A stretch of DNA of 64,000 nt, from positions 578,267-642,266 of the forward strand of contig NZ_KB911258.1 of the NCBI RefSeq assembly GCF_000383415.1, in the 5' to 3' direction. A program made the translations under genes and the position numbers. The notes beneath the pieces are model-generated. The model saw nothing but the letters and a program-made list of their open reading frames with translations. It was not told the origin of the DNA and searched no databases. Shown one piece after another: positions 6,836 through 42,727 of the stretch. Origin of the DNA: Hyphomicrobium zavarzinii ATCC 27496 (GTDB taxonomy: Bacteria > Pseudomonadota > Alphaproteobacteria > Rhizobiales > Hyphomicrobiaceae). Numbering within the stretch: the stretch's first letter is position 1; every line of letters starts with the position of its first letter.

Positions 6836-6911
6836 TTTTTCGTCGGGATGCGCGGGTGAAGGTGGCCGGTGGATGGCCGCCTCTGCGGGCAGCCATGGCG
6901 GAGGGGGCGTG

Positions 6912-6952: not shown

Positions 6953-7040
6953 TGCGACTACGTCTTTTGATCTTGGGACCGGTCGACGTGAGCCACCCGC
7001 GGCTCGCGCGACCACACGATTGGCGGAACATCCGCAGCGC

Positions 7041-7154: not shown

Positions 7155-7204
7155 GTAACGTAGGGGCGCCATTCAGGCCATAGCCCCGCATCGCCCCTCA
7201 TAAC

Positions 7205-7227
7205 ATGGCCGGGCTCGACCCGGTCAT
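7205..7227. repeat. Short palindrome of a second repeat type
   Basis: ATGGCCGGG / CCCGGTCAT with a 5-base loop (one G-T pair), about 100 bases upstream of tmk. It resembles a further class of dispersed palindromes of alphaproteobacteria. Its ATG is in frame with tmk, which could mislead automated start calling. Confidence 0.5.
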
Positions 7228-7324
7228 CCAGGGTGAGGTGCTTGTGGTGTCCATTTCTTCACCGCCAGGCATGAGCTGCGGGGATTTGCTTGATCTCGGG
7301 CGGCGACCCACTAGTCTCCGCCGC

Positions 7325-7951: not shown

Positions 7952-7953
7952 CG

Positions 7954-9081: not shown

Positions 9082-9234
9082 ACGGTTTTACCAGTGAAGG
9101 CCCGCTCGACGATGACCCGGTTCATGTCAGTGCCGATGCGCCCCGGCCGAATGTGACGGCTTGTCCGCGCGCGTTCGGCAGCGTGAACGATCGGCCAGTG
9201 AAACCCGGCGACAACCAAGTCTCCAAGAGGTCCC

Positions 9235-10854: not shown

Positions 10855-10906
10855 ATCAACCCCTTGCCCACCGCATTCCGTTAAGAGGGCGAGGGAGGAG
10901 TGCCCG

Positions 10907-12501: not shown

Positions 12502-12535
12502 CAGGCGAACTTCGGCCGTGCCGCTCCCACATCGG

Positions 12536-12585
12536 CGTCACTCCGGCGAAGGCATGAGCCTGGACACGTCGAAGGCAGGCCTGAG
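12536..12585. repeat. Degenerate copy of the dispersed palindromic repeat (locus B, left)
   Basis: Begins GCGTCACTCCGGCGAAGG and ends CACGTCGAAGGCAGGCCTGAG. The last 21 bases match the end of the unit at 12751-12801 almost perfectly, so these are diverged copies of one longer element. Confidence 0.6.
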
Positions 12586-12688
12586 AGTCCCATGTCCCAA
12601 CGCGTCGATTGCCAGCAATCCGACAAGTGACGGTCGAGACCGAGATGAGGCATCCTGAGCACCACGCCTCCACGCGTGGACGAATGCC

Positions 12689-12801
12689 GTCTGGATCCCG
12701 ACCTGCGCCGGGATGACGTCGGAGTATGGCGGGCCGTCAGCCTACATTCAACGTCACCCCGATGAAGATCGGGGTCCAGACACGTCGAAGGCAGGCCCGA
12801 G
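12689..12801. repeat. Dispersed palindromic repeat, inverted pair (locus B, right)
   Basis: Left arm 12689-12722 (GTCTGGATCCCGACCTGCGC...) and right arm 12751-12801 (ACGTCACCCCGATGAAGATC...) form an inverted pair like locus A. The MBL-SDR intergenic interval (12502-12848) consists largely of these repeats; I see no gene in it. Confidence 0.8.
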
Positions 12802-12848
12802 GTTCAAATGCCGAAGCACGCGCATTGGGCAGTTTCGCGCTGCTAAGC

Positions 12849-13604
12849 TCAGGCGTCGTTGCTGGCTGCGAGCGACGCGGCCACGCCGTCCGGATGATAG
12901 CGCACCACGTCCCCGTTGCGCTCGGAAGCAGGCAGGAGGAGGGGAAGCGCGAAGGCCGCAACCTGCGCCGGATCTGCGAGCTTGCTCTTGTCCTCGCCCG
13001 GGAACGCCTTGGCGCGGAGGCCGGTCCGCATGGGCGTGGGGTCGAGCAGCGCAACGCGCGCATTGGTGTTCGCGAGCTCTTGCGCGTAGGTCTTGGCCAG
13101 CGCCTCGAGCCCGGCTTTCGAAACGGCATACGGCCCCCAGTACGCGTCGTTTCCGTGAGCCGCTTCGCACGTGACGAACAGCGCACGGCCCGCGTCAGAC
13201 CGCTTGAGCAGCGGATCGAGCGTGCGGATGAGCCGCCAGTTGGCCGTGAGATTGATGTCGAGCACGGAGTTCCAGGCATCGGCGCTCACATGCGGCAGCG
13301 GCGAGAGCGAGCCGAGAATGCCGCCGGCCGCGACCAGAACGTCGAGCTTGCCCCAGCGCTGGTAGATCACCGGACCGAGCTGGTCGATGCGATCGGCGGC
13401 ACGCAGGTCGAGCTTCAGGATCGTCGCGTGCCCGCCCACCGCGCGGATCTCGTCGTCGAGCTCTTCGAGAGCACCCGCCGAGCGAGCGCAGATGACGACG
13501 TGAGCCCCCTCGCGCGCCAGCGCCAGCGCCATTTCACGGCCGAGCCCTCGTGACGCGCCGGTGACGAGGGCGAGACGGTCCTTGAAGCGGGGGCGCGATG
13601 CCAT
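12849..13604 (-). CDS. Short-chain dehydrogenase/reductase
   Basis: 251 residues. It has the NAD(P)-binding TGASRGLG motif (15-22) and the catalytic pair Y159 and K163 in YAVSK. At the position of the usual catalytic serine the sequence reads FVTCEAA, placing Cys146 there, which is unusual for an active SDR. The substrate is unknown. It lies downstream of purF on the same strand after a 317-base gap; an SDR at this site is conserved in related genomes (general knowledge, not checked). Confidence 0.85.
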   Translation of the reverse strand: MASRPRFKDRLALVTGASRGLGREMALALAREGAHVVICARSAGALEELDDEIRAVGGHATILKLDLRAADRIDQLGPVIYQRWGKLDVLVAAGGILGSLSPLPHVSADAWNSVLDINLTANWRLIRTLDPLLKRSDAGRALFVTCEAAHGNDAYWGPYAVSKAGLEALAKTYAQELANTNARVALLDPTPMRTGLRAKAFPGEDKSKLADPAQVAAFALPLLLPASERNGDVVRYHPDGVAASLAASNDA

Positions 13605-13921
13605 GACTGGCCTTTCAGGCGTCTTCCGGGCGGAAGCGCGTTGGTTTTATCGTGAGCCAAGAAGGAGACTGTAAGCCGGGAAGCTTGCGGCAGAGAAGTG
13701 CCGCCTCTCGGATTAGTTTCCAAGAGGAAAGCACGCCGCAGGGCCGGATTTGTTCTAGAGGGTCATATGCAAGTCTAGGGCGTCGCTACACCAGCTCTCC
13801 GGATAGCTATCGCTCCGGGCACCACGCGCGCTCAAAAACGGGCGAGCCAGCCTTCGAGGCGCGGCCCAGTCCGACGCTCTCGGCGCGGGGAGGAACGAGA
13901 GGAGGGGGCCGCCTGCCGGGG
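13605..13921. other. Intergenic region between purF and the SDR
   Basis: 317 bases. A short stem-loop GCGGCA/TGCCGC lies at 13687-13704. No gene, strong promoter or clear terminator was recognised. Confidence 0.4.
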
Positions 13922-15421
13922 CTAGCCCACTTCCGCGAGAAGCGAGAGCTGGCGCGTTCCGGCGAGACCGTTCTGGTCCGTCAGCTCGGTCGGGTACTCG
14001 CCGGTGAAGCAGTGATCGGTGAACTGCGGAGCACGCGCATCGCGGCCCTCGTAGCCCACGGCGCGATAGATGCCGTCCACGGAGAGGAACGCCAGGCTGT
14101 CGGCCCCCATGAAGGCGCGCATGCCTTCGAGATCGTAGTTGGCGGCCAGCAGCGCCTTCTTGCTCGGCGTGTCGATGCCGTAATAGTCCGAGTGCGTGAT
14201 CGGCGGCGACGAGATGCGCATGTGCACCTCCTTGGCGCCCGCTTCGTACATCAGCTGCACGATCTTCTTCGATGTGGTGCCGCGCACCACGCTGTCGTCG
14301 ATGAGCACGATGCGCTTGCCGCGAATGACGCCCGCGTTGGCCGAATGCTTGAGCTTCACGCCGAGCGCCCGGATCTGCTGCTCCGGCTCGATGAAGGTGC
14401 GGCCGACATAGTGGTTGCGGATGATGCCGAGCTCGAACGGAATGCCGGATTCGCGCGCAAAGCCGATCGCGGCGGGCACACCCGAGTCGGGAATGGGCAC
14501 GATGACGTCGGCTTGGACGGGAGTCTCGCGGGCGAGCTGCACGCCCATCTGCTGGCGCACGTCATAGACCGACCGACCGCCGATGATGCTGTCGGGGCGG
14601 GCGAAGTAGATGTACTCGAAGATGCACGGGCGCGCGGGGCGGCGCGGATAAGGGCGATGGCTCTCGAGCCCCGCTTCCGTGATCACCACGACTTCACCGT
14701 TCTCGACCTCGCGCAGGAACTCGGCGCCCACGATATCGAGCGCGCAGGTTTCCGAGGCGAGCACGTAGGCATCGCCGATCTTGCCGATCACCAGCGGACG
14801 GATGCCGACCGGATCGCGAGCGCCGATCATCATGTCGTTGGTGAGGCAGACGAGCGCCCAGGCGCCTTCGATCTGCCGCGTCGCCTCGACGAAGCGCTCG
14901 ACCATGCGCCGCTTCTTGGAGCGCGAGAGAAGGTGGAGGATGACCTCGGTGTCCGAGGTGGAGGGGAAGATGGCGCCGGAGCTGATCAGCTCCTGGCGGA
15001 GCGTGAGGGCGTTGGTGAGGTTGCCGTTGTGGGCCACGGCAAATCCGCCGGTATCGATATCCGCATAGAGCGGCTGGACGTTCTTGAGGGCGGGCTCGCC
15101 GGTGGTCGAGTAGCGGTTATGACCCACCGCCATGCTGCCCTTCAGGCGATGGATGACGCCCGCCTCGTTGAAGTTGTCGCCGACGAGACCGAGGCGCCGC
15201 TCCGAGTGGAACTGCTTGCCGTCGTAGGTCACGATGCCGGCTGCTTCCTGGCCGCGATGCTGAAGGGCGTGGAGGCCGAGCGCCGTGATCGCAGCCGCTT
15301 CGGGGTGTCCAAAAACACCGAAGACTCCGCATTCCTCGCGGAGTCTGTCGTCGCCCATCCGAGACAGGCCGAAATCAGGAAATTCCTCGCTCCCGGATTT
15401 GGGCGCGTGATCGTGCGTCAT
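13922..15421 (-). CDS. purF: Amidophosphoribosyltransferase (glutamine PRPP amidotransferase)
   Basis: 499 residues. It catalyses the first committed step of purine synthesis, PRPP plus glutamine to phosphoribosylamine. Cys31 in EECGVFGVFG is the Ntn-hydrolase nucleophile, implying that a 30-residue propeptide is removed, as in the Bacillus-type enzyme. The PRPP-binding loop reads VLIDDSVVRGTTSKK. Four-cysteine Fe-S ligation is typical of this subclass but was not verified residue by residue. It follows cvpA on the same strand. A 13-base tandem repeat lies 40-65 bases upstream of the start. Confidence 0.96.
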   Translation of the reverse strand: MTHDHAPKSGSEEFPDFGLSRMGDDRLREECGVFGVFGHPEAAAITALGLHALQHRGQEAAGIVTYDGKQFHSERRLGLVGDNFNEAGVIHRLKGSMAVGHNRYSTTGEPALKNVQPLYADIDTGGFAVAHNGNLTNALTLRQELISSGAIFPSTSDTEVILHLLSRSKKRRMVERFVEATRQIEGAWALVCLTNDMMIGARDPVGIRPLVIGKIGDAYVLASETCALDIVGAEFLREVENGEVVVITEAGLESHRPYPRRPARPCIFEYIYFARPDSIIGGRSVYDVRQQMGVQLARETPVQADVIVPIPDSGVPAAIGFARESGIPFELGIIRNHYVGRTFIEPEQQIRALGVKLKHSANAGVIRGKRIVLIDDSVVRGTTSKKIVQLMYEAGAKEVHMRISSPPITHSDYYGIDTPSKKALLAANYDLEGMRAFMGADSLAFLSVDGIYRAVGYEGRDARAPQFTDHCFTGEYPTELTDQNGLAGTRQLSLLAEVG

Positions 15422-15460
15422 GGCTGCCTCCCGCTAAAGCATCCGCCGCAACTTCTTACG

Positions 15461-15486
15461 CAAGTACACGCAACAAGTACACGCAA
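15461..15486. repeat. 13-base perfect tandem repeat upstream of purF
   Basis: CAAGTACACGCAA occurs twice head-to-tail (15461-15473 and 15474-15486); on the purF strand it reads TTGCGTGTACTTG. The position in the purF leader would suit an operator or a transcript element, but no regulator is known for it here. Confidence 0.6.
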
Positions 15487-15602
15487 CGGGTGCTCGTCGC
15501 ACACATCCGGAGGGTCTTACACCGCCGTTGCATGCGCGGAATATATGATAATCGAAGGACTGTTAAAGAGCTTTGTTGCGAATGTCGCGGATCTGTCACC
15601 GC

Positions 15603-16154
15603 CTATTGCGCAGGGGGCTCACTGGGGGCCGGAGGCTGCGACAGAGTGGTCGGCATATAGGTCTCGAGCGCACCCCGGATCACGTTTCCGGTGGCCCTGA
15701 TATAGGGCGTGGACAGACCATCGCGTACCCATGGCAGGTGGTTCTGCTCGTCCGGAACAAAAGAAGCGTAGAACATGTAAGGGATTACGACGAGCAGGAA
15801 GCCGCGGGCCAGTCCGAACAGGAAGCCCAGGATGCGGTCGATCATGCCGACGCTGCTATCCAGGATCGCGTCCGAGATGCGGGCCGTGATCAAGTGAACA
15901 ATGATGAGGACAATCAAAAAGATGACCGCGCCGATGGCAATCTGCGCCACCGCGACCTGCGTGTTGAGCTGGGCGGCCATGTCCTCGGCCACCTTCTTGT
16001 GATTCAACACGAAATAGAGGGTGGCACCGGCCGCCGCGATCCACGACAGGATCGACATCAGCTCGCGCGTGAGCCCGCGGTACATGGCGAGCAGCGCGGA
16101 AATGAAGCAGACCGCGAGCACGGCGGCGTCGAGATAGGTGAGCGGCCCGATCAT
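15603..16154 (-). CDS. cvpA: CvpA family inner-membrane protein
   Basis: 183 residues with four predicted membrane helices (about 7-24, 28-46, 66-89 and 103-127) and the DRILGFLFGLARGFLLVV segment typical of CvpA. E. coli CvpA is known for colicin V export and membrane stress phenotypes; its molecular role is unclear. The tail is Pro-rich (PPAPSEPPAQ). It lies between radA and purF, the classical order. Confidence 0.92.
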   Translation of the reverse strand: MIGPLTYLDAAVLAVCFISALLAMYRGLTRELMSILSWIAAAGATLYFVLNHKKVAEDMAAQLNTQVAVAQIAIGAVIFLIVLIIVHLITARISDAILDSSVGMIDRILGFLFGLARGFLLVVIPYMFYASFVPDEQNHLPWVRDGLSTPYIRATGNVIRGALETYMPTTLSQPPAPSEPPAQ

Positions 16155-16219
16155 GATCTAGGCTCCTCCAAAAGCGGGAAGCGGCATTATAAGCGATATC
16201 TTTGAGTGTCCCTGGCCGT

Positions 16220-17596
16220 TCAGTCGCATGGGAGAAGGTCCTCCGCAAGCTCCTTCAGATGGGAAATCCTGCGAAGTGTGAGCTTCGCCCCGTCGGCGTT
16301 CGGGTCGCCGCTGGCCGGGATGACGGCCTCCGTGAACCCGAGCTTGGCGGCCTCCTTGAGGCGGAGCCCCATGTGGGGGCTTGCCCTCACCGCGCCCGAA
16401 AGCGAGATCTCGCCGAAGTGGATCTGCTGAGGATCGAGCGCTTGGTTCGAGCGCGAGGCGAGAAGAGCGGCAGCGGCCGCGAGGTCGGCCGCAGGCTCCA
16501 TGATGCGAAGCCCGCCCGCCACGTTCAGGTAAACGTCGTGATGGGCGAACGAGACGCCGCACCGCGCCTCGAGCACCGCGATCAGCATCGCGAGCCGGCT
16601 CTGCTCCCAGCCGACCACCGCGCGGCGTGGCATGCCGAGGCCGGAAGGCGCGACGAGCGCCTGGATCTCGACCAGGATCGGGCGCGTGCCTTCCATTCCA
16701 GCGAACACCGCGGTGCCCGGCGCCTTGATGTCGCGCTCGCCGAGGAAAAGCTCGGAAGGGTTGGCGACCTCGCGCAGCCCGGCGCCCGCCATCTCGAACA
16801 CGCCGATCTCGTCCGTGGCGCCGAAGCGGTTCTTGGTGGAGCGCAGGATACGGTAGGTATGCCCCCGGTCGCCCTCGAAGGAGAGCACGGTGTCGACGAC
16901 GTGCTCCACCGCCTTGGGCCCGGCGATCTGGCCCTCTTTGGTGACGTGTCCGACGAGCAGCAGCGCGCAGCCCGCAGACTTGGCGTAGCGGACGAGCGAC
17001 TGCGTCGCCGCCCGCACCTGGCTCACGGAGCCGGGCGCGGCTTCGAGCGCGTCGGTCCATAGCGTCTGGATGGAATCGATCACGACGAGATCGGCCTTGG
17101 GCTCGGCTGCAAGCGTCGCGAGAATATTGGTGAGGCTCGTCTCGGCGGCGAGCGCGACCGGTGCATCCGCGAGGCCGAGGCGGCTCGCGCGGAGCCGCAC
17201 CTGGGCCGAGGCTTCCTCGCCAGAAAAATAGATCGCGCGCCGCCCCGCGCGCCCGAGCGAGGCCGCAAGCTGAAGCAGCAGCGTCGATTTGCCGATGCCC
17301 GGCTCGCCCGAGATCAGCAGCACCGAGCCCGGCACGATGCCGCCGCCGGTGACGCGGTCGAGCTCCGGCATGCCCGTGAGCAGGCGAGGGGCTTCTTGAG
17401 GTGCCCCCGTAAGCGTTTCGAGCGTGAGCACCCGCCCTTTGCTGGCCTTGGCGAGCCCGGTCCCCGGCGGGGGCGGCGACGCCATCTCCTCGACGATGGT
17501 GTTCCAGTCGCCGCATGAGCCGCATTTGCCCGCCCAGCGCGCGGAGATCGCCCCGCAGCTCTGGCAGACGAAGCTCGATTTCGCGGCCTTGGCCAT
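16220..17596 (-). CDS. radA: DNA repair protein RadA (Sms)
   Basis: 458 residues. It is a RecA-like ATPase that drives branch migration during recombinational repair. The N-terminal C4 zinc finger uses C11, C14, C25 and C28. Walker A is GEPGIGKST (97-105), the RadA-specific KNRFG motif follows, and the C-terminal third is the Lon-like domain. Only three bases separate it from the upstream alr stop, so the two are cotranscribed. Confidence 0.96.
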   Translation of the reverse strand: MAKAAKSSFVCQSCGAISARWAGKCGSCGDWNTIVEEMASPPPPGTGLAKASKGRVLTLETLTGAPQEAPRLLTGMPELDRVTGGGIVPGSVLLISGEPGIGKSTLLLQLAASLGRAGRRAIYFSGEEASAQVRLRASRLGLADAPVALAAETSLTNILATLAAEPKADLVVIDSIQTLWTDALEAAPGSVSQVRAATQSLVRYAKSAGCALLLVGHVTKEGQIAGPKAVEHVVDTVLSFEGDRGHTYRILRSTKNRFGATDEIGVFEMAGAGLREVANPSELFLGERDIKAPGTAVFAGMEGTRPILVEIQALVAPSGLGMPRRAVVGWEQSRLAMLIAVLEARCGVSFAHHDVYLNVAGGLRIMEPAADLAAAAALLASRSNQALDPQQIHFGEISLSGAVRASPHMGLRLKEAAKLGFTEAVIPASGDPNADGAKLTLRRISHLKELAEDLLPCD

Positions 17597-33148: not shown

Positions 33149-33907
33149 TCAGGGCAGCTCACGCGCGCAGCTGATGACCGAGAGGAAGCGGATCGGAAGC
33201 TGCACCAGCTCCTCCGGCCCATGCGGCGCATCCGCGTCGAAGAACAGGCTGTCGCCGGGCTTCATCGGATAGAGCTTGTCGGCATGGCGATAGACCACCT
33301 GGCCTTCGAGAACGTAGATCAGCTCGAGACCGGCGTGCTGGAACAGCGGAAACACGTCCGACTCTTCCGTGAGTGTGATCAGATAAGGCTCCACCACCAC
33401 GCCGCCCGACTGGCCACCAGTGTGGCCGAGCAATTGATACTGATGGCCCGCGCGGGTTCCGCGCCGTTCGATCAGCAGGCCCTGCCCCGCCGAGACGAAA
33501 ACGGCGTTGCGCCGCTCCTCGAAGCGGCGGAACAGCGCCGTGACGGGAACGCCCAGCGCCTTGGAGAGCCGCTGCAGCGTGGTGAGCGACGCGCTCGTGA
33601 CGCCGTTCTCGATCTTCGAGAGCATACCGAGCGAGAGACCCGCGGCGCGCGCGAGATCTGACGCGGTGATGCCGAGCTTGTTGCGGAATGCGCGAACCTC
33701 GCGCCCGATCGCCACCTCGAGCATGCTGTCACGCGCGCCTTGCAGCGCATGCGGATCCTGCTCGTCCTTGGTTTCGATGGTCTGCATGACCTCGGCGAAC
33801 TCTTCGGCAGACAGCGCTTTGCGGCGCTTCTGTTCGCCGCGCCCCTCAGTGCTCGGGATCTCTGTCGCGCTGTCTTTCTTCAAGGAGCTTCCCGATCTCT
33901 GGTTCAT
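33149..33907 (-). CDS. XRE-family transcriptional regulator with C-terminal cupin sensor
   Basis: 252 residues from the ATG at 33907. The N-terminal about 60 residues are polar. A Cro/C1-type helix-turn-helix spans about 67-125 (TASDLARAAGLSLGMLSKIE). A cupin domain spans about 175-245 with HAGLELIYVLEGQ and DAPHGPEE. This architecture senses small polar metabolites such as amines or amino acids (PuuR-like family knowledge). It is divergent from the permease/MgsABC/GmaS cluster and separated from it by 759 bases, so it is the natural candidate regulator of that cluster (inference). Longer in-frame starts up to 34132 exist but lack support. Confidence 0.85.
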   Translation of the reverse strand: MNQRSGSSLKKDSATEIPSTEGRGEQKRRKALSAEEFAEVMQTIETKDEQDPHALQGARDSMLEVAIGREVRAFRNKLGITASDLARAAGLSLGMLSKIENGVTSASLTTLQRLSKALGVPVTALFRRFEERRNAVFVSAGQGLLIERRGTRAGHQYQLLGHTGGQSGGVVVEPYLITLTEESDVFPLFQHAGLELIYVLEGQVVYRHADKLYPMKPGDSLFFDADAPHGPEELVQLPIRFLSVISCARELP

Positions 33908-34666
33908 GCGCTGCGAGCCCCCATGTGTGGTCGATGCCGAAGAGAAACACCACCTTTTCGCGAACAAACTACAACAGCCTGTCGAGCGATGCAGGGCCGA
34001 CGTGGCACCGGAAAATGGTGGAGGAGCGGAGAGTCCTCCGGTCGCATCGAACCACGATAGCTGACGTTTTGGCAACTGACGTGTTCGGTGATGGATCTTT
34101 GGTGCGCGATCGTTAGCAAGTTTTGAACGCACACATTTTCGCGAGGATCAAGTCGGCGCACCGGACGCGGAGCCGGAGAGGTGCGCGACCCGGATTGCGG
34201 ATCACGCTCGCGCGAGGCCCATATCTGACCCCGATCAGTTCGCGGATTTTTCGCCGGGGAGTGCCGGTTCGAGAAAATATAACCGCATACAGAACATTGC
34301 GCGCGCGATGGAAGGGCTTTTGCAGCGCCTTCAGAAGCCAACTCTGGAATGCCGGAGGTCGAAGCAAATTCTGTCCGACTTCAAACATAGACGCCGGAAT
34401 CCTGGATCGAAGGGTCTGGCCGGAAGCAGGGGTGAATCCGCCGCTTCTTCCCGGAGTGAATAAATAATTCGGAGCGTTCAAGAAAACCGACGCACAGCTA
34501 AAAGCGCCCAAAAGACAAGCGTTCTGGTGGCAAATCTGCTCACCACAACATCATACGCCTTGACAAAGTGCGGCAGGAGGACGCACTGTTTTTCCGCACA
34601 TAAAAAAACGTTGCCTCACAGGCAACTCCAGGAGGAACCCTGAAAACCGTATCCCAAGGGGGAGTT
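33908..34666. promoter_or_regulatory. Long divergent control region upstream of the amine cluster
   Basis: 759 bases with no convincing gene. Features seen are a direct repeat CTGACGT at 34061-34067 and 34076-34082, a GGAGGA/TCCTCC inverted pair near 34019-34038, TTGACA at 34560-34565 and GTGCG/CGCAC around 34568-34586. No good -10 lies 16-18 bases after TTGACA. The last 150 bases are noticeably less GC-rich than the surroundings. Promoters and operators of both the regulator and the cluster should lie here. Confidence 0.45.
34610..34626 (+). promoter_or_regulatory. Perfect hairpin in the leader of the amine-transport cluster
   Basis: GTTGCC-TCACA-GGCAAC, 41 bases before the first start codon. 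It could be an operator half-site pair or an RNA leader stem; no T-run follows, so it is not a terminator. Confidence 0.45.
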
Positions 34667-34960
34667 ATGCAACAAAAAATACCAGATCCACGTGTCCACT
34701 CGATGTTCTCCGGCGATCGCACGTGGGCGTTCGGCGCGGTTATTGTCCTCTGGACGCTCTATGGCTTCGTCTTCTGGCGGCTCACGCAGACCGCCCCGGC
34801 GGATGGGGTTCTTCAGGCTCTTGCAGTTGCCGGTGGCCTCGTCCTGCTTTTCAACTCGGCCTCGATCATCGCGATGATCAAGCACTACGCTGAGGACAAG
34901 GAGCACATCTACGGGCTCGACATCCACTACCTCGACGAAATGAAGAAGTCGAAAGGCTAG
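34667..34960 (+). CDS. Small two-helix membrane protein, first of the amine-transport cluster
   Basis: 97 residues, not recognised. Two helices at about 20-40 (WAFGAVIVLWTLYGFVFWRL) and 50-71, then a charged tail (HYAEDKEHIYGLDIHYLDE) likely in the cytoplasm. GGGGGAG lies directly upstream of the ATG. It is followed after 11 bases by the next small membrane gene, so these genes form one transcription unit with the permease. A role as an accessory subunit of the permease is inference from context. Confidence 0.75.
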   Translation: MQQKIPDPRVHSMFSGDRTWAFGAVIVLWTLYGFVFWRLTQTAPADGVLQALAVAGGLVLLFNSASIIAMIKHYAEDKEHIYGLDIHYLDEMKKSKG

Positions 34961-34971
34961 GGAGCGAGCAC

Positions 34972-35379
34972 ATGGCTAAGACACCGTACAAGCCGCCGAC
35001 GCAGTCTCTGCTCGGCCAGACCTTCGATACCCTTTTCCTTCTCGCACTCGTTATGGCTGCGCTCTTCATTCCGCTCTACCTCGGCCTGGCCGGAGGCGGA
35101 AAGACGACGCTCGAGCTCAAAGACACCACGTGGGCGGGCATGGGTCAGAACGCGACCATGCAGGCGCAGTGGGAGAAGCTCGGCTTCACCGCAGGCCCGA
35201 AGACGGAGGAGAACGCGACATCGGCTGCTGAGCTGATCTCATCGCGCTTCGACTACTCCTTCGAGCCTGTTGAGCTCGCCATCACTGCACTCGTCGTCAT
35301 CGGGTATTTCTTCATCGTCTTTCACTGGTCGAAGAAGGAATACCGCGACGTGATCGACGAGCGGTTCAACAACAAGTGA
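34972..35379 (+). CDS. Two-helix membrane protein with an extracytoplasmic domain
   Basis: 135 residues, not recognised. Helices at about 20-41 and 99-118 (EPVELAITALVVIGYFFIVF) flank a soluble segment of about 57 residues. That segment has no cysteines and contains DTTWAGMGQNATMQAQWEKL, probably outside the cytoplasmic membrane. The short charged ends would be cytoplasmic. It lies in a tight operon with the gene before it (11 bases) and the one after it (13 bases). Confidence 0.75.
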   Translation: MAKTPYKPPTQSLLGQTFDTLFLLALVMAALFIPLYLGLAGGGKTTLELKDTTWAGMGQNATMQAQWEKLGFTAGPKTEENATSAAELISSRFDYSFEPVELAITALVVIGYFFIVFHWSKKEYRDVIDERFNNK

Positions 35380-35392
35380 GAGGAGGGTTCCC

Positions 35393-35578
35393 GTGAATAA
35401 CTTTCAACTGCTCGAATACGGGGCCTGGGGCCTCTCCGCGCTGCTTGGCTTGTGGATGCTGATCGACCTGATCCGCACCGACAAGACCTACAGCGAAGAA
35501 CTGCTGACCTCCTCCAAGGAAGGTGAAATCGAAGACGCGCTCGTCATCGATCCGCCTCATCAAGGAGGCCACCTGTGA
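35393..35578 (+). CDS. Single-helix mini membrane protein
   Basis: 61 residues from a GTG start with GAGAGGAGGG just upstream. One helix (about 8-26, EYGAWGLSALLGLWMLIDLI) and an acidic cytoplasmic tail. Its TGA stop overlaps the GTG start of the permease gene, a sign of translational coupling and probably stoichiometric production with the permease. No family recognised. Confidence 0.72.
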   Translation: MNNFQLLEYGAWGLSALLGLWMLIDLIRTDKTYSEELLTSSKEGEIEDALVIDPPHQGGHL

Positions 35579-36960
35579 CTCAGACAACAGCAGTTCACGG
35601 CGAGCGAATTTCGCTCTTGCGCGTGCTTGGTCCGGGTCACGTGTGGGCGCTTGGCGTCGGCATCGTGCTCGTGGGCGAGTACATGGGCTGGAACTTCGCA
35701 GTGGGCAAGGGCGGCGCCATCGCCGCTCTGATCGCCTGCTGGGTGGCCGGTCTTCTCTACACCTGCGTCGCCATGATCGACTCGGAGGTGACCTCGACGG
35801 TTGCCGCCGCCGGCGGTCAGTACGCGCAGGCCAAGCACATCGTCGGGCCTTTGATGGCCTTCAACGTGGGCCTGTTCCTCGTCTTCGCCTACACCATGCT
35901 CGAAGCGGCCAACGCGATCACGCTCGGCTATCTCGTGCAGACGGTAGGATCGATGGCGGGGTTCGCGGATACGCATGACAAGCCGTTCATCGTGCTGACG
36001 ATCATGTTCCTCGCCTGGCTCAACTACCGCGGCGTCTACGCGACCCTGACGTTCAACCTCGTCATCACGGCCATCGCGTTCGTCGCCATCTGGGTGCTGT
36101 TCTTCGCCGTTCAGCCCTGGAGCAGCGTCTACATGAAGCACGGCGACCTGCTCACCGGTCTGCCATACGGCTGGCTCGGCGTTCTCGCCGCGCTCCACTT
36201 CGGCATGTGGTACTACCTCGGCATCGAAGGTACGACGCAGGCCGCCGAGGAGGTTCGCTCGCCCGCGCGCGCACTTCCCCTCGGCACCATGACGGGCATC
36301 ATCACGCTGCTCATCGCCGCGACCATGACCTGGTACATCTGCGCCGGCATCATGCCGTGGGAGTATCTGGGCCAGGCCGTGACGCCGCTGTTCGATGCGG
36401 CCCGTCTCACGGACTCGACGCTTCTGATGGTGCTTCTCTTCATCGGCACCATCTTCTCGACGCTGGCCTCCGCCAACGGCTGCATCAACGACGCATCCCG
36501 CGCCTGGTTCTCCATGGGACGTGACCGTTATCTGCCGCAGGTCTTCGGCGCCGTGCATCCCAAGTACCGGACGCCCTATCGGGCGATCGTGTTCCTGGTG
36601 CCGGTGGCCCTTGTGTTCGCGTACTTCGCGCCGCTCGATCAGGTGATCACCTTCTCGATCCTGTCGGGTCTGCTCGAGTACACGTTCATGGCGATCAACG
36701 TCATCATGTTCCGGCAGAAATGGCCGCTCGGCGTGATCAAGCGGGGCTACGTGCACCCGTTCCATCCGCTGCCGGCTCTCGTGCTTCTGCTGCTCTGCTC
36801 CGTCACGTATTTCGCGGTGTTCCTCGGATACGGCACGCAGCTCATCGCGATGATGGTGTTCTACATCGTCGCCTCGCTGTGGTTCGCATTCCACCGTTAC
36901 AAGTTCGTGCGGCGCGGCGCGCAGTTCACGATGCCCTGGCCTAAGCCGGTCGGCTACTGA
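35575..36960 (+). CDS. APC-superfamily amine/amino-acid permease
   Basis: 461 residues with about 12 predicted helices. The start is a GTG at 35575 that overlaps the previous stop, with AAGGAGG upstream. The N-terminal helix I region contains GEYMGWNFAVGKGG, similar to ethanolamine/amine permeases of the APC family, and AAGGQYAQAK is also APC-like. It would import a small cationic amine with protons or ions. Given the enzymes downstream, methylamine or a related amine is the likeliest substrate (inference). A terminator-like hairpin follows. Confidence 0.85.
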   Translation: MTQTTAVHGERISLLRVLGPGHVWALGVGIVLVGEYMGWNFAVGKGGAIAALIACWVAGLLYTCVAMIDSEVTSTVAAAGGQYAQAKHIVGPLMAFNVGLFLVFAYTMLEAANAITLGYLVQTVGSMAGFADTHDKPFIVLTIMFLAWLNYRGVYATLTFNLVITAIAFVAIWVLFFAVQPWSSVYMKHGDLLTGLPYGWLGVLAALHFGMWYYLGIEGTTQAAEEVRSPARALPLGTMTGIITLLIAATMTWYICAGIMPWEYLGQAVTPLFDAARLTDSTLLMVLLFIGTIFSTLASANGCINDASRAWFSMGRDRYLPQVFGAVHPKYRTPYRAIVFLVPVALVFAYFAPLDQVITFSILSGLLEYTFMAINVIMFRQKWPLGVIKRGYVHPFHPLPALVLLLLCSVTYFAVFLGYGTQLIAMMVFYIVASLWFAFHRYKFVRRGAQFTMPWPKPVGY

Positions 36961-36978
36961 TCACGACACGCAACGGAA

Positions 36979-37011
36979 GAAACGCGGCTCGGAAACACCG
37001 GGCCGCGTTTC
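36979..37011 (+). terminator. Terminator-like hairpin after the permease
   Basis: GAAACGCGGC / GCCGCGTTTC with a nested TCGG/CCGG stem, 18 bases after the permease stop; only a short T-run follows. It may end the transport operon or reduce read-through. Confidence 0.6.
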
Positions 37012-37151
37012 TCGGATAAGGCAGCGGATGCGGAGCGCGCGGTCGTTCGCAGTGCCGGTGCCGTCATCGAACCACGATCAATCGAAGAGCCCGGGTGTTG
37101 CAGCTTTCCACGATGGCGTGGCACCCCGGATCCCAACGGAGAGTGTGGCCC

Positions 37152-37838
37152 GTGTCTTCGCTTTCGACGGCCCTTATATCGTTTATTGCAATCGTCGGTC
37201 CGCTGACGTGGCTTGCCCTGCGCGACCACAAGGCCCTGCGCGCGAGCCGCGCCGGTTTGCTCGATGATTGTGCACGCCTGTTCAACGGCTATGCATTGAC
37301 GCACAGCGGCGACAGCTTTCCAAAGCTCAGCGGACGGTGCGACCGGCGCAACGTCGACATCCGCCTGATCAGCGACACAATGACCATCCGGAGGCTTCCG
37401 CAGCTCTGGCTTCAGGTCACGGTGCTGGAGAAGGTGCAGGGGTCGACCGGCCTCGCCGTGCTTGTCCGACCCTCCGGCTACGAGTTCTACAGCCTGACGC
37501 CTCAGTTCCCCTACATCCTCGAAACCCCGCCGGAGTTCCCGCCCGAGGTGATCATCCGCGGCGAGAATGCGAGAGCCGAAAAACTCCTTGAAAAGCTCGC
37601 TAAACCGATGGCCGCGATCCTGGCCGATCCGCGCGTCAAGGAGATCGCCGTCACGCGCGAGGGCCTGCGCATCATTCGTCAGGCGGGCGAGGGCCGGCGC
37701 GGCGAATATCTGCTTCTGAGGCAGGCCGTGTTCGATGAGGCCGCCGTCTCCGCCGATCAGTTCCAGAGCGTGCTTGCCGAGATCGATACGCTCCGCACGG
37801 CAATCGAAAATCCGCAACGGGAGCACACCTACGCATGA
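37152..37838 (+). CDS. Unknown protein with an N-terminal membrane helix
   Basis: 228 residues from the GTG at 37152, chosen because GGAGAG (37138-37143) lies 8 bases upstream. One helix at about 4-21 (LSTALISFIAIVGPLTWLAL) anchors a soluble domain of about 200 residues with no cysteine pair or catalytic motif that I can identify. It overlaps the next gene by four bases. It is located between the permease and mgsA, so a role in the same process is possible but unproven. Confidence 0.65.
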   Translation: MSSLSTALISFIAIVGPLTWLALRDHKALRASRAGLLDDCARLFNGYALTHSGDSFPKLSGRCDRRNVDIRLISDTMTIRRLPQLWLQVTVLEKVQGSTGLAVLVRPSGYEFYSLTPQFPYILETPPEFPPEVIIRGENARAEKLLEKLAKPMAAILADPRVKEIAVTREGLRIIRQAGEGRRGEYLLLRQAVFDEAAVSADQFQSVLAEIDTLRTAIENPQREHTYA

Positions 37839-38125
37839 CGACGTCACGCGCACCCATGAATCCTTACACGGTTCTTGCATTGGCCATCGTGCTGCCCGGG
37901 ATGGGGCACGTGGCCGTCGGACAACCGCAGCGAGGTTTCGGCTTCGCCTTCTTCGCGCTCCTCATGGCGCTGGTGTCCTGGCACACGACCACACCCGAGC
38001 ATTCCTTCATCGGCCGCTCGGCCGCTGGTCTGTTTGTCTGGGCGCTCTCGATTCCCGATGCCTATCGCATCGCACGGCTGCAGTACGAACGATGGAGTCG
38101 CGGACTTTCGAATATCGCGCGATGA
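37835..38125 (+). CDS. Small membrane protein of TM2-like type
   Basis: 96 residues with two or three helices. The segment LPGMGHVAVGQPQRGFGFAF resembles the Pro-Gly-x-Gly loop of TM2/DUF-type small membrane proteins. The ATG overlaps the previous stop (ATGA). Function unknown; together with the preceding gene it forms a coupled pair inside the amine cluster. Confidence 0.65.
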   Translation: MTTSRAPMNPYTVLALAIVLPGMGHVAVGQPQRGFGFAFFALLMALVSWHTTTPEHSFIGRSAAGLFVWALSIPDAYRIARLQYERWSRGLSNIAR

Positions 38126-38213
38126 AAAAAAGTTGCATCGCAGTTGAATCGAGAAACATGAAGTGCTAGCGTCTGTATAGAAACAGCAAACGGCATACGG
38201 GGTGCGCCATCCG

Positions 38214-39110
38214 ATGTGCGGAATAGTTGGGCTATTCATCAAGAACAAAGCATTGGAGCCTCGGCTAGGTGAGTTGACGGCGGGAATGCTTGCCACGATG
38301 TGCGAGCGCGGGCCGGATTCTGCAGGTTTCGCCGTCTACGGCGCTCCCAATTCCGGCAAGGTCAAGATCACCCTTCAGTCGCCCAGTGCGGAGGCTGACT
38401 TCGCCGATCTCGCCAAGACCGTCGGGAAGGCGATTGGCGCGGATCTGAAGCTCGACGTGAAGTCGTCCCACGCCATCCTGACCTGCCCGGCCGACAAGGC
38501 TGAAGAGGCCCGCAAGGCTGTTCGCGAGAAATTCCCCAGCGTCCGCATCATGGGCGCCGGCGACGTGATCGAGATCTATAAGGAGGTCGGCTATCCGACC
38601 GACGTCGCCAAGCGCTTCGATCTTGCGAAGATGTCCGGCACGCACGCCATCGGCCACACGCGCATGGCCACCGAGAGCGCCGTCACCACGCTCGGCGCCC
38701 ATCCGTTCTCGACCGGCCCCGATCAGTGCCTGGTTCACAACGGCTCGCTCTCGAACCACAACAATCTGCGCCGCGATCTCAAGCACGACGGCATGACCTT
38801 CGAAACGCAGAACGACAGCGAGGTCGCTGCCGCCTATCTCACGTGGCGCATGAACCAGGGCCTCAATCTCGGCCAGGCGCTGGAGAAGAGCCTCGACGAT
38901 CTCGACGGCTTCTTCACCTTTGTCGTAGGCACCAAGAACGGCTTTGGCGTTCTGCGCGATCCCATCGCCTGCAAGCCGGCCGTGCTCGCCGAGACGGACG
39001 ACTATGTGGCCTTCGGCTCCGAGTACCGCGCTCTGGCCGGTCTCCCTGGCATCGAGAACGCGAAGGTCTGGGAGCCCGAGCCCGCAACCGTCTACTTCTG
39101 GGAGCGCTGA
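38214..39110 (+). CDS. mgsA: Glutamine-amidotransferase subunit of an N-methylglutamate synthase-like enzyme (MgsA/GlxB)
   Basis: 298 residues from the ATG at 38214, where Met is followed directly by the nucleophilic Cys2 (MCGIVGLF); a start four codons earlier would block this. It is a class II amidotransferase with HTRMATES and HNGSLSNHNNL. An inserted domain at about 50-125 is typical of the GlxB/MgsA group. In the N-methylglutamate pathway this subunit works with MgsB and MgsC to turn gamma-glutamylmethylamide plus glutamate-derived precursors into N-methylglutamate (family knowledge). One base separates its stop from mgsB. Confidence 0.85.
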   Translation: MCGIVGLFIKNKALEPRLGELTAGMLATMCERGPDSAGFAVYGAPNSGKVKITLQSPSAEADFADLAKTVGKAIGADLKLDVKSSHAILTCPADKAEEARKAVREKFPSVRIMGAGDVIEIYKEVGYPTDVAKRFDLAKMSGTHAIGHTRMATESAVTTLGAHPFSTGPDQCLVHNGSLSNHNNLRRDLKHDGMTFETQNDSEVAAAYLTWRMNQGLNLGQALEKSLDDLDGFFTFVVGTKNGFGVLRDPIACKPAVLAETDDYVAFGSEYRALAGLPGIENAKVWEPEPATVYFWER

Positions 39111-39111
39111 G

Positions 39112-39798
39112 ATGCGGTCGATCGATCTGACGAAGACGCCGCTCCGCGAGCTCAACGCCAGCCTGCATGAGCAGAAAGACGGCACCAACGAGACCGAGTG
39201 GGAGGTGTTGAACCCGCGCGGACAGCACGCCATCGCCGTCGGCCTCGATGCGCCGGTCACGGTCACCGTTCGCGGCTCCGTCGGGTACTACGTCGCCGGC
39301 ATGAACAAGCACGCGACCGTCATCGTCGAGGGATCGGCTGGCCCCGGCGCTGCCGAGAACATGATGTCCGGCAAAGTCATCGTCAGAGGCGACGCGAGCC
39401 AGTACGCGGGCGCCACCGGCCGCGGCGGCCTGCTCGTCATCGAAGGCAACGCGTCCTCGCGATGCGGCATCTCGATGAAGGGCATCGACATCGTCGTCAA
39501 GGGCAACATCGGCCACATGTCGGCCTTCATGGCGCAGTCCGGCAGCCTCGTCGTTCTCGGCAACGCGGGCGACGCGCTGGGAGACAGCATCTACGAGGCT
39601 AGGCTCTACGTGCGCGGAAGCGTGAAGAGCCTCGGCGCCGACTGCATCGAAAAGGAGATGCGGCCCGAGCATCACGAGGCGCTTGCGGCTCTGCTCGCCA
39701 AGGCCGGCGTGACCGATGTGAAGACGTCGGAGTTCAAACGCTACGGCTCCGCGCGCAAGCTCTACACCTTCAACATCGACAATGCGGATGCCTACTGA
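39112..39798 (+). CDS. mgsB: GltB-C-like GXGXG subunit (MgsB/GlxC)
   Basis: 228 residues of parallel beta-helix with repeated glycines (GSVGYYVAGMNKHATV, GDASQYAGATGRGG, GNASSRCGISMKG). It corresponds to the C-terminal domain of glutamate synthase and acts as a structural subunit between MgsA and MgsC. Its stop overlaps the mgsC start by one base. Confidence 0.87.
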   Translation: MRSIDLTKTPLRELNASLHEQKDGTNETEWEVLNPRGQHAIAVGLDAPVTVTVRGSVGYYVAGMNKHATVIVEGSAGPGAAENMMSGKVIVRGDASQYAGATGRGGLLVIEGNASSRCGISMKGIDIVVKGNIGHMSAFMAQSGSLVVLGNAGDALGDSIYEARLYVRGSVKSLGADCIEKEMRPEHHEALAALLAKAGVTDVKTSEFKRYGSARKLYTFNIDNADAY

Positions 39799-41126
39799 TG
39801 AGCTATCAAAATCCGCCGACCACGCCCCGCAAGTCCGCCACCTTCGACGACTACACGCTCTCCGAAATCCGGCGCGCGGCCCAGACGGGCATCTACGATA
39901 TTCGCGGCGCAGGCGCGAAGCGGAAGGTTCCGCACTTCGACGACCTGCTGTTTCTCGGCGCGTCCATGTCGCGCTACCCGCTCGAGGGCTATCGCGAGAA
40001 ATGCTCGACGACGGTCACGCTCGGCACACGCTTCGCCAAGAAGCCGATCGAGCTAAAGATACCGATCACCATCGCGGGCATGAGCTTCGGCTCGCTCTCG
40101 GCCAACGCCAAGGAGGCACTCGGGCGCGGCGCAACGATAGCCGGAACGTCGACGACGACCGGTGACGGCGGCATGACGCCCGAGGAGCGCGGACAGTCCG
40201 AGAAGCTCGTCTACCAGTATCTGCCGTCTCGCTACGGCATGAATCCGGACGACCTGCGCAAGGCCGATGCCATCGAGGTGGTGGTGGGGCAGGGCGCCAA
40301 GCCCGGCGGCGGCGGCATGCTGCTCGGCCAGAAGATTTCCGATCGCGTCGCCGAGATGCGCACGCTGCCCAAGGGCATCGATCAGCGCTCTGCCTGCCGT
40401 CATCCCGACTGGACCGGGCCTGACGATCTCGAGATCAAGATCCTCGAGCTGCGCGAGATCACCGATTGGGAGAAGCCGATCTACATCAAGGTGGGCGGCG
40501 CACGCCCCTACTATGACGTGGCGCTCGCGGTGAAAGCCGGTGCCGACGTCGTAGTCGTCGACGGTATGCAGGGCGGCACCGCGGCTACGCAGGAAGTGTT
40601 CATCGAGCATGTCGGCCAGCCCACGCTCGCCTGCATCCGCCCCGCCGTCCAGGCACTCCAGGATCTCGGCATGCATCGCAAGGTGCAGCTCATCGTATCG
40701 GGCGGCATCCGCAACGGCGCCGACTGCGCCAAGGCACTCGCCCTCGGTGCGGACGCCGTCTCCATCGGCACCGCCGCGCTCGTGGCTCTCGGCGACAACG
40801 ATCCGGCGCTCGAAAGCGAGTACGAGAAGCTCAACACCGTCGCCGGTGCCTACGACGACTGGCACGAAGGGCGCGACCCGGCCGGCATCACCACGCAGGA
40901 TCCCGAGCTCGCCAAGCGCCTCGATCCTGTGCGCGCCGGTCGCCGTCTCGCCAACTATCTCAAGGTCATGACGCTCGAGCTGCAGACCATCGCGCGCGCG
41001 GCAGGCCACAACCATGTCCACAATCTCGAGCCGGAAGACCTCTGCGCGCTCACCATCGAGGCCGCCGCCATGGCGCGCGTGCCGCTCGCGGGAACGAGCT
41101 GGATTCCGGGTCAGGGTGGCTTGTGA
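39798..41126 (+). CDS. mgsC: FMN-binding glutamate-synthase-like subunit (MgsC/GlxD)
   Basis: 442 residues. It matches the FMN/synthase domain of GltB: ITIAGMSFGSLSANAKEALGRG, a GGIRNGADCAKALALGADAV phosphate site, and a TIEAAAMARVPLAGT end. Where classical GltB carries the 3Fe-4S cysteine motif before PxGI-TQ, this protein has YDDWHEGRDPAGITTQDPEL (about 352-371) with no cysteines. It should therefore lack that cluster. It would use FMN to form (N-methyl)glutamate. Confidence 0.87.
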   Translation: MSYQNPPTTPRKSATFDDYTLSEIRRAAQTGIYDIRGAGAKRKVPHFDDLLFLGASMSRYPLEGYREKCSTTVTLGTRFAKKPIELKIPITIAGMSFGSLSANAKEALGRGATIAGTSTTTGDGGMTPEERGQSEKLVYQYLPSRYGMNPDDLRKADAIEVVVGQGAKPGGGGMLLGQKISDRVAEMRTLPKGIDQRSACRHPDWTGPDDLEIKILELREITDWEKPIYIKVGGARPYYDVALAVKAGADVVVVDGMQGGTAATQEVFIEHVGQPTLACIRPAVQALQDLGMHRKVQLIVSGGIRNGADCAKALALGADAVSIGTAALVALGDNDPALESEYEKLNTVAGAYDDWHEGRDPAGITTQDPELAKRLDPVRAGRRLANYLKVMTLELQTIARAAGHNHVHNLEPEDLCALTIEAAAMARVPLAGTSWIPGQGGL

Positions 41127-41416
41127 CCGCACGCGCTTCGGGAGCTGCATTCCGAAGCAGGGCTTGCGGGTCGAAAAAACGATCCCGATCGTCTCGGACC
41201 AGCCGGCCCGCGACGTAAACCGGTGGTCGGATCACAACGGCCGCTATCGCTTCAGGCAAATCCGCCCGGAACTCGATCGCGGCCGGCTACGAACGAAAAG
41301 AGCCAATGATCGCTGCGGGCGAGTGCGTCCAGAGGCGTGAGTAGAGGCCGAACATGTTCTCTAGGTTCTGGAAACACAAGTCGAACAGCAACGTAACCGT
41401 GTCCGGGGAAAAACCA

Positions 41417-42727
41417 ATGTCACAGGATCTGGCTCAGGTCGCAAAAGAGCGCGGCATCCGCTACTTCATGATTTCTTTCACCGATCTCTTCGGCTTCCAG
41501 CGCGCCAAGCTCGTGCCCGCAGCCGCGATCGCCGAGATCCAGAAAGACGGCGCAGGCTTTGCGGGCTTCGCGACGTGGCTCGATATGACGCCCGCGCACC
41601 CCGATATGTTCGGCATGCCGGACCCCGCAGGTCTCATCCAGCTTCCCTGGAAGCCCGAGGTCGCCTGGGTCGCCTCCGATTGCGTGATGGAGGACAAGCA
41701 CGTCGCCCAGTCGCCGCGCGTGGTGCTGAAGAAGCAGGTCGCGAAGGCCGCTGAGAAGGGCCTGCGCATCAAGACCGGTGTCGAGTGCGAGTTCTTCCTG
41801 ATCAACGCCGACGGCACGACGATTTCCGATCCCAAGGATCAGGCCTCTAAGCCCTGCTACGATCAGCAGGCGATCATGCGCCGCTACGACGTGATCTCCG
41901 AGATCTGCGACTACATGCTGGAGCTCGGCTGGGGTCCGTACCAGAACGACCATGAGGACGCCAACGGCCAGTTCGAGATGAACTGGAATTTCGATGACGC
42001 GCTGCTCACCGCCGACCGTCACTCGTTCTTCAAGTACATGGTGCGCTCGATCGCCGAGAAGCATGGCCTGCGCGCGACGTTCATGCCGAAGCCGTTCCCG
42101 ACCCTCACCGGCAACGGCTGCCACGCGCATATCTCGGTCTGGGATGCGGCGACGGGCAAGACCAACATGTTCTACGACAACTCCGACGAGATGGGCCTCT
42201 CGCAGCAGGGCTACAACTTCCTCGGCGGCATCATGCGCCACGCGGAGTCGCTCTCGGCGATCACCAATCCGACGGTGAACTCCTACAAGCGCATCAACGC
42301 CCCGCGCACGATCTCGGGCGCAACGTGGGCACCGAACTCTGTCACATGGACCGGCAACAACCGCACGCATATGGTTCGCGTGCCGGGCAAGGGCCGCTTC
42401 GAGCTGCGCCTCCCGGACGGCGCGGCGAACCCCTATCTCTTGCAGGCGGTCATCATCGCCGCCGGCCTCGACGGCATCGAGCGAAACGCCCATCCGGGCA
42501 AGCGCCTCGACATCGACATGTACAAGGAGGGGCACACGGTAAAGGACGCGCCGAAGCTTCCGCTGAACCTGCTCGACGCCCTGCGCAACTTCGACAAGGA
42601 CACCAGCCTCAAGGAGGCACTCGGAACCGAGTTCGCGGACGCGTTCATCAAGCTCAAGACAAGCGAATGGAACTCCTATGCCTCCCACTTCACCCAGTGG
42701 GAGCGGGACCACACGCTCGACGTCTGA
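41417..42727 (+). CDS. gmaS: Gamma-glutamylmethylamide synthetase / type III glutamine synthetase (GmaS/GlnT family)
   Basis: 436 residues from the ATG at 41417; an in-frame ATG at 41354 would add 21 residues. GS-fold motifs are GVECEFFLI, NGCHAHISVW, GNNRTHMVRVPG and ELRLPDGAANPYLL. GmaS ligates methylamine to glutamate with ATP; GlnT homologues make glutamine or related amides. The adjacency to mgsABC and the amine permease favours the GmaS role (inference). It is followed by a strong terminator. Confidence 0.82.
   Translation: MSQDLAQVAKERGIRYFMISFTDLFGFQRAKLVPAAAIAEIQKDGAGFAGFATWLDMTPAHPDMFGMPDPAGLIQLPWKPEVAWVASDCVMEDKHVAQSPRVVLKKQVAKAAEKGLRIKTGVECEFFLINADGTTISDPKDQASKPCYDQQAIMRRYDVISEICDYMLELGWGPYQNDHEDANGQFEMNWNFDDALLTADRHSFFKYMVRSIAEKHGLRATFMPKPFPTLTGNGCHAHISVWDAATGKTNMFYDNSDEMGLSQQGYNFLGGIMRHAESLSAITNPTVNSYKRINAPRTISGATWAPNSVTWTGNNRTHMVRVPGKGRFELRLPDGAANPYLLQAVIIAAGLDGIERNAHPGKRLDIDMYKEGHTVKDAPKLPLNLLDALRNFDKDTSLKEALGTEFADAFIKLKTSEWNSYASHFTQWERDHTLDV

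Follow-up and report, generated by a model that had tools for sequence, protein, structure and literature searches.

A six-gene block around an APC-superfamily permease in Hyphomicrobium zavarzinii and its link to methylamine metabolism

Three genes encoding very small membrane proteins, here called A, B and C, lie directly upstream of a gene for an APC-superfamily permease in Hyphomicrobium zavarzinii ATCC 27496, and the last of them overlaps the permease start. They were noticed in a 64,000-nucleotide stretch of contig NZ_KB911258.1 (positions 578,267 to 642,266, forward strand; "the window" below means this whole stretch), and an original prediction made from its letters read the four genes as a multi-subunit transporter or a dedicated regulatory or assembly module for amine uptake. 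The question raised by this locus is whether the small genes truly belong with the permease and, if they do, what such a set of proteins might carry. The first part can be answered firmly: there is good support for a near-obligate six-gene module that surrounds the APC permease and is tied to methylamine use. The second is answered more tentatively below, and the first interpretation as a whole is partly supported.

The main evidence comes from the company these genes keep elsewhere. A profile of B was used to scan the contigs of GTDB species, and the best 80 of the 168 relatives were examined (locus numbers begin with L and genome numbers with G). In every one of these 80 loci B has A, C and the permease beside it, with order and strand unchanged, and among the 27,093 reading frames of the 80 loci and the window A, B and C have exactly one match each per locus. 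Two further genes, D and E, follow the permease in 77 and 76 of the 80 loci respectively, every miss (L021, L027, L044, L088) falling at a contig end. The unit is thus six genes long, A-B-C-permease-D-E, and larger than the four-gene block first noticed; that block was correct for its four members and incomplete in missing D, E and a divergent regulator gene of the XRE-cupin type. A few members are imperfect: the permease frame of L085 is short (146 amino acids), those of L021, L027 and L088 are cut by the contig end, the start of the contig truncates A in L082, and the score of A is low in L021.

The close packing described for the window is confirmed by its open reading frames and by a hydropathy scan, with genes of 97, 135 and 61 residues having two, two and one hydrophobic segments, gaps of 11 bases between A and B and 13 between B and C, and a four-base overlap (GTGA) of C with the permease; by eye, a purine-rich stretch lies just 5' of each of the four starts. 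With gene starts chosen by script and the window included, the gap is at most 30 bases in 79 of 81 loci for A-B, in 77 of 81 for B-C and in 65 of 81 for C-permease, the last pair overlapping in 29 of 81. Ratios of nonsynonymous to synonymous substitution rates (dN/dS) between the window and its close relatives L020, L022 and L023 are 0.11-0.15 for A, 0.09-0.15 for B, 0.06-0.15 for C, 0.05-0.07 for the permease, 0.25-0.34 for D and 0.09-0.15 for E; against L024 they are 0.15 for B, 0.19 for C, 0.05 for the permease, 0.36 for D and 0.08 for E, with dS not computable for A. Because these ratios are low and the order A-B-C-permease is kept throughout the 80 loci, the four-gene arrangement is, to judge from the sequences, not a product of chance.

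Searches of whole genomes, whose loci overlap with the 80 and are not independent of them, gave the same picture. Of the 103 genomes in the window's family, 40 have B and 39 have the permease (E <= 1e-60), and each of the 39 is among the 40. The fortieth, G474, is an 84% complete assembly; B occupies 187-564 of its contig, on the minus strand, which would put the permease beyond the contig end. At 38 of the 42 places where B occurs in the family the permease follows it on the same strand, no more than 500 bases away, the four others being G471 and G498 (where a contig break splits the block and its parts lie as expected), G474, and a copy linked to methylamine dehydrogenase (mau) genes. Conversely, 38 of the 44 permease matches in the family have B close upstream; the remaining six are the G471 and G498 splits, a fragment in G004, the second of two tandem permeases in G452 and in G456, and the mau-linked copy. 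D is present in 39 of the 103 genomes; it is absent from G474 and G477, which have B, and present in G490 (88% complete), which does not.

Wider samples were searched as well. In the class sample of 385 genomes the permease occurs in six and B in the same six (a seventh B match, at 4e-4 within an 841-residue frame, was taken as chance), and in the phylum sample of 339 genomes the permease occurs in 13 among the matches listed. With the permease as query, 46 loci drawn from the family, class and phylum samples, window included, contain A, B and C in 45 cases, the miss being L158, which starts at a contig end; D is found in 43 and E in 42. Fourteen family matches without a locus, including the mau-linked and tandem copies, were left out of this count and examined by coordinates, and the mau-linked copy was fetched separately (L179). 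All six genes are also found in Paraburkholderia caribensis MBA4, outside the Alphaproteobacteria, and in G827, a genome of the phylum sample outside the class whose permease is 70% identical to that of the window. The association of A, B and C with the permease is therefore near-obligate and well supported, in both directions of search, which bears out the proposal that the small genes are dedicated to the permease; small genes scattered without a permease were not seen, save in the rearranged copy L179 and the incomplete assembly G474.

The link to methylamine metabolism is strong at the level of genomes. A gene of the GmaS family is found in 65 of the 103 family genomes -- in all 40 that carry B and in 25 of the 63 that do not (Fisher p 2e-11, not corrected for kinship) -- and, among the matches listed, in 72 of the 385 class-sample genomes, including five of the six with the block. 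Flanks of up to 10 kb were scored for genes of methylated-amine metabolism, and at least one of those tested lies within them in 46 of the 80 loci: gmaS in 35, mgsC in 35, mgsA in 33, soxB in 21, soxA in 20, dmm in 11, tmm in 8, tdm in 5 and mau in 2. The dmm, tdm and sox labels derive partly from annotation and are in part names that we take to apply. Where the flanks hold no such gene (34 loci) or one other than gmaS (8 loci), a GmaS-family gene is found in 39 of the 42 genomes; in the other 38 loci, gmaS is within the locus itself in 35.

In P. aminophilus the permease of the block adjoins mgs and gmaS genes on pAMI6. On plasmid paAMD1 of Aminobacter niigataensis MD1 about 17 kb separate the block from glnT/gmaS; the methylamine genes of that strain have been placed on this plasmid, and the majority of the genes in its dimethylamine and methylamine clusters are described as more abundant on dimethylamine than on sucrose (PMC9699525). 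For M. universalis FAM5, amino-acid permease homologues are mentioned among the functions responding to methylamine, and the first of the two parts of the expression-table section lists no permease (PMC5023235). At some Rhizobium-type loci (L056-L058, about 7904-9334, and L114, 7073-8425) a more distant gene of the glutamine synthetase family lies directly 5' of A.

The permease itself belongs clearly to the APC superfamily, scoring 94.8 bits for Pfam AA_permease (cut-off 24.6) and 90.4 bits for AA_permease_2 (cut-off 27). Most of its sequence is conserved across loci, with a median identity to the window of 78% over 77 aligned sequences. All of the phylum-sample matches listed are at least 68% identical, with none weaker down to 1e-45, so that by sequence it appears to be a discrete family. 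Its closest relative of solved structure is GkApcT (6f34/5oqt, E 1e-22), in which the carboxylate of alanine contacts Thr43 and Gly44 in transmembrane helix 1 (PMC5803215). In the HMMER alignment a one-residue gap falls in the stretch around those two residues, with V33-G34-E35 of the permease alongside, and E35 is retained in 78 of 79 sequences. Since this acidic residue aligns near the carboxylate-binding turn, it would suit an amine substrate that has no carboxylate. A relative at L157 (G020:C153:6215-7600) carries one in-frame TAG, from sequencing error or decay.

None of the five partners reaches the cut-off of a recognised family, the first three having already been called unrecognised: A to E have no Pfam family over its cut-off and no PHROGs match at 0.01, A to C no NCBIfam family over its cut-off, and searches of NCBIfam at 0.001 matched neither D nor E. 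Compared with the window, median identity is 40% for A, 53% for B, 49% for C, 32% for D and 55% for E. All three of the upstream proteins (window 34667-35578) end in conserved charged tails, of the YGLD-I-x-x-LDE type in A and the LTSSREGE type in C, with an S-x-KEYR-x-VI-x-ERF motif on the long C-terminal helix of B (alignment of 61); these might have a common cytoplasmic binding partner. The AlphaFold2 model of B (pLDDT 84, pTM 0.44) has two long helices and an outer segment of some 62 residues with short elements. The earlier suggestion that this segment binds substrate is unsupported, as a Foldseek comparison of the model with the PDB gave three matches at E up to 10, the best at 4.9 and none of them meaningful. 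Pfam searches of 61 B proteins at E 0.5 gave scattered matches only; the strongest, to BCCT transporters in two of the 61 (best E 2.5e-4), were taken as chance helix similarity. In genus g74 (L102-L105, L107-L110; L185 7549-8094) B matches as two pieces of one longer frame of 163-183 amino acids, and the outer segment appears to be longer there.

D and E have one and two helices respectively by hydropathy, and the best Pfam match of E, to DUF7533, reaches 18.9 bits (cut-off 27). The AlphaFold2 model of D (pLDDT 94.5) consists of an N-terminal helix and a globular domain; because the stretch RDHKALRASR follows the helix, that domain is predicted to lie on the cytoplasmic side. Among the best 50 of 461 Foldseek matches in the PDB, the first is TtfA (6t84, E 1e-4) and the next are the translocon chains 9i78_4, 7tm3_4 and 6w6l_7 (E 4e-4 to 1.2e-3), all with probability 1.00 and TM-scores of 0.36-0.51 of the query; the other 46 have probabilities of at most 0.12, except Spa15 at 0.69 and 0.57. 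Chain 9i78_4 has 371 residues, which fits residues 76-447 of CCDC47, the part stated to be built in that entry, and 7tm3_4 and 6w6l_7 are presumably CCDC47 as well. In Pfam searches of 68 D proteins at E 0.5 no family matched more than two, so that D does not fall into the CCDC47 or TtfA sequence families. With TM-scores in this range the likeness is a lead rather than a result, one which would make D a possible transporter or assembly partner.

Whether the partners have evolved in step with the permease was examined in 30 loci with all eight genes. The evolutionary distances of C and E correlate best with those of the permease (0.82 and 0.80), and after removal of the gmaS trend the values are 0.75 for C, 0.71 for E, 0.47 for D, 0.45 for B and 0.06 for A, with 0.40 for mgsC as a control. 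These values favour C and E as close partners and are neutral for B and D.

A few copies stand near a different route of methylamine oxidation. At L024 and L025 the block is downstream of mau genes, and in the genomes concerned (G456 and G452) a second permease follows in tandem (10610-11995 and 12031-13413 in L024) and A, B and C are present once. In G462 a normal copy is accompanied elsewhere in the genome by L179 (G462:C3:2551000-2570900, 4117-17043), in which an A-like gene (54 bits) and the permease come ahead of a response regulator and histidine kinase, then the methylamine dehydrogenase genes and, last, B; further mau genes there carry names that we presume to be right. Both chains of methylamine dehydrogenase exceed their equivalog cut-offs in L024 and L179. 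The permease of L179 is 70% identical to that of the window, with E35 changed to N. From this arrangement, A, B and the permease have remained together with a second, unrelated methylamine-oxidation system.

These observations would be accommodated by a dedicated methylamine uptake system made up of the APC permease, its small partners and an assembly or regulatory pair, a proposal to which we give an even chance. The permease would carry methylamine (as methylammonium) inward; A, B and C would be made with it by coupled translation and would sit beside it in the membrane, where its stability or gating would depend on them; D and E, as another pair, would work from the cytoplasmic side to help assemble, hold or regulate the complex; and the amine, once inside, would supply GmaS and the N-methylglutamate pathway. 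We infer from the patterns above that there is such a complex, what it carries and in which direction, and what each partner does. A more far-reaching version -- an obligate multi-subunit APC machine with three small integral subunits and a dedicated D-E assembly pair like CCDC47-Asterix or TtfA-MmpL3 -- seems rather doubtful; if true, it would combine a dedicated methylamine importer of methylotrophs with a membrane-protein chaperone that is encoded in the operon and specific to its client.

Several findings weigh against the proposed uptake system. The 25 family genomes that have a GmaS-family gene and lack B mean that the module is not required for the GmaS pathway, and G110, a fragmentary assembly of the class sample, has the block without a GmaS match. 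In 34 of the 80 loci, several of them on short contigs, the flanks contain none of the tested genes; the three of the 42 genomes that also lack a GmaS match elsewhere (L044, L049, L082) are metagenome-assembled genomes with short contigs. The corrected correlation of A lends no support, and those of B and D are close to the control. C, D and E were not found in the L179 copy. Methylamine dehydrogenase is described as periplasmic (PMC5023228), so that a mau-linked permease for uptake meets no obvious need.

The best-surviving alternative, which we consider somewhat unlikely, is that A to E are indeed partners and the permease moves some other solute of methylated-amine users, in or out: di- or trimethylamine, ammonium, N-methylglutamate or an ethanolamine-like amine. 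Its best named profile is that of the ethanolamine permeases, TIGR00908, to which it does not belong at 176 bits against an equivalog cut-off of 381.75, and the tmm, dmm and tdm genes counted above lie in some of the flanks, tmm exceeding its cut-off in L050 and L070. Against this, the genome-level link that was tested is with gmaS, and on pAMI6 the tmm-like and dmm genes adjoin two other, distant APC permeases, while the permease of the block adjoins mgs and gmaS.

A second alternative is that the permease-like protein is a methylamine sensor (a transceptor) whose state A, B and C relay to regulators, transport being secondary. At L179 sensing is a real rival, because the dehydrogenase is periplasmic and the copy adjoins a response regulator and histidine kinase ahead of the dehydrogenase genes, and the conserved tail motifs of A, B and C could serve such a relay. 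No kinase is found within the six genes of the window, however, and from locus to locus the permease is conserved over most of its length, as would be expected of a working transporter, which makes this reading quite unlikely.

Less probable again is that A, B and C share no more than a transcript with the permease and have functions of their own, such as a part in membrane or nitrogen regulation. This would explain why the distances of A do not track those of the permease beyond the shared background, and it fits poorly with A-B-C being next to the permease at 45 of the 46 loci, which span several families and reach outside the class, and in Paraburkholderia, or with A and B still travelling with the permease in L179. 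Finally, identity with TmoP, the permease for trimethylamine N-oxide (TMAO), was rejected and is hardly credible: TmoP is likewise an APC-type permease, and tmoP is carried by published methylotrophy clusters, yet the window permease shows 22% identity over about 150 residues (E 0.002 and 0.04) to the two long APC permeases of P. aminophilus pAMI6 (L115, 13935-15674 and 42945-44750; 578 and 601 amino acids) that are candidates for TmoP by their position, against 76% to the pAMI6 permease of the block. Both candidates adjoin tmm-like, dmm and sarcosine oxidase genes, with no A-C-like small genes annotated there; the comparison is with these position-inferred candidates and not with M. silvestris TmoP itself.

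The features of the window are collected in Table 1. With gmaS and mgs genes alongside, the block stands in an N-methylglutamate pathway cluster; we take the 38202-39110 gene to encode a subunit of N-methylglutamate synthase and the 41354-42727 gene presumably to encode gamma-glutamylmethylamide synthetase. The counterpart of the mgsC-like gene in P. aminophilus, flanked by the GXGXG and glnT genes, bears the annotation "FMN-binding glutamate synthase family protein". Profile matches for the XRE-cupin regulator were found in 34 of the 80 loci, a few of them weak. No Rfam element reached its gathering score between 33000 and 43000, and scans of 33900-38300 gave nothing usable, with one promoter-like site (0.9 expected from shuffling) and six terminator-like ones (3.6 expected). 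The genome of the window (G000) has two further GmaS-family genes, at C5:333019-334302 and C1:465757-467055.

Table 1. Genes of the block and its neighbours, in window coordinates
Feature	Position	Strand	Remarks
A97	34667-34960	+	ATG start; 97 aa; 2 predicted helices; C-terminal tail conserved
B135	34972-35379	+	ATG start; 135 aa; 2 helices
C61	35393-35578	+	GTG start; 61 aa; one-helix membrane protein
APC-superfamily permease	35575-36960	+	GTG start; 461 aa
D	37152-37838	+	228 aa from aligned start 37152; reading frame open from 37095 (247 aa)
E96	37835-38125	+	96 aa small membrane protein; start overlaps D stop
XRE-type helix-turn-helix + cupin gene, divergent, candidate cluster regulator	33149-33907 (start approximate)	-	Pfam HTH_3 and Cupin_2 over cut-off
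mgsA-like, glutamine-amidotransferase-like subunit	38202-39110	+	Pfam GATase_6 over cut-off
mgsB-like	39109-39798 (start approximate)	+	Open reading frame; conserved in relatives' loci; name inferred from position between mgsA-like and mgsC-like
mgsC-like, FMN-binding glutamate-synthase-like subunit	39798-41126	+	Best NCBIfam match, glutamate synthase large subunit, below cut-off
gmaS-like, type III glutamate-ammonia ligase family	41354-42727	+	TIGR03105, 681.5 bits (cut-off 469.6)

No description of the A-B-C-permease-D-E block was found in searches of the open-licence PMC literature. Existing annotations of the block in P. aminophilus, Pararhizobium qamdonense and two Aminobacter records go no further than hypothetical proteins and an amino acid permease. 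In the passages available, the transporters named for methylated amines or ammonium are TmoP, TmoXWV and AmtB, and a "methylamine transporter" is mentioned once in PMC8292978; those named for methylated-amine users thus concern TMAO or ammonium, amino-acid permeases being merely listed as methylamine-responsive. A conserved carrier that forms a discrete family and comes with the same five unrecognised partners would be a direct genetic target for methylamine uptake. As for the ethanolamine permeases of TIGR00908, they provide the best named profile and yet, at less than half the cut-off score, are far from the permease; we know of no small partners for them.

Closer parallels lie in transporters with membrane partners. 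TtfA is reported to bind MmpL3 and to be needed for its transport, and CCDC47 and Asterix are described as an intramembrane chaperone (PAT); like the predicted form of D, TtfA and CCDC47 are membrane-anchored with a cytoplasmic globular part, and they serve a membrane transporter or translocon. D is paired with the small membrane protein E as CCDC47, which has a single helix, is with Asterix, the D-E pairing being one of genes. The differences are the modest TM-scores of D and the absence of a consistent Pfam link, and no paper treating both TtfA and CCDC47 was listed in a search of the open-licence PMC literature. The premise that APC permeases normally act alone needs qualifying, as both the heteromeric SLC7-SLC3 transporters and the GkApcT-MgtS pair exist. 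SLC7-SLC3 likewise joins an APC-fold carrier to an obligate membrane partner, the near-obligate association here being one of genes; the SLC3 heavy chain is one large glycoprotein, whereas here there are three tiny proteins without a large outer domain. A single-helix heavy chain with a large outer domain is found in none of A, B, C and E (61-135 amino acids), and D is larger but has its domain predicted inside. Nearest is GkApcT, a bacterial APC transporter of the CAT family and also the closest solved relative of the permease, which was crystallised with the one-helix partner MgtS and took up less substrate when made without it (PMC5803215), so that a small single helix can pack on an APC transporter. 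There, MgtS was supplied by the E. coli expression host rather than encoded with GkApcT as a dedicated partner, the partner is one rather than three plus two, and the crystallised substrate is an amino acid. The block, if its products act as proposed, would add to the few APC carriers that have dedicated membrane partners and would offer simple bacterial proteins for studying the control of a carrier by tiny membrane proteins.

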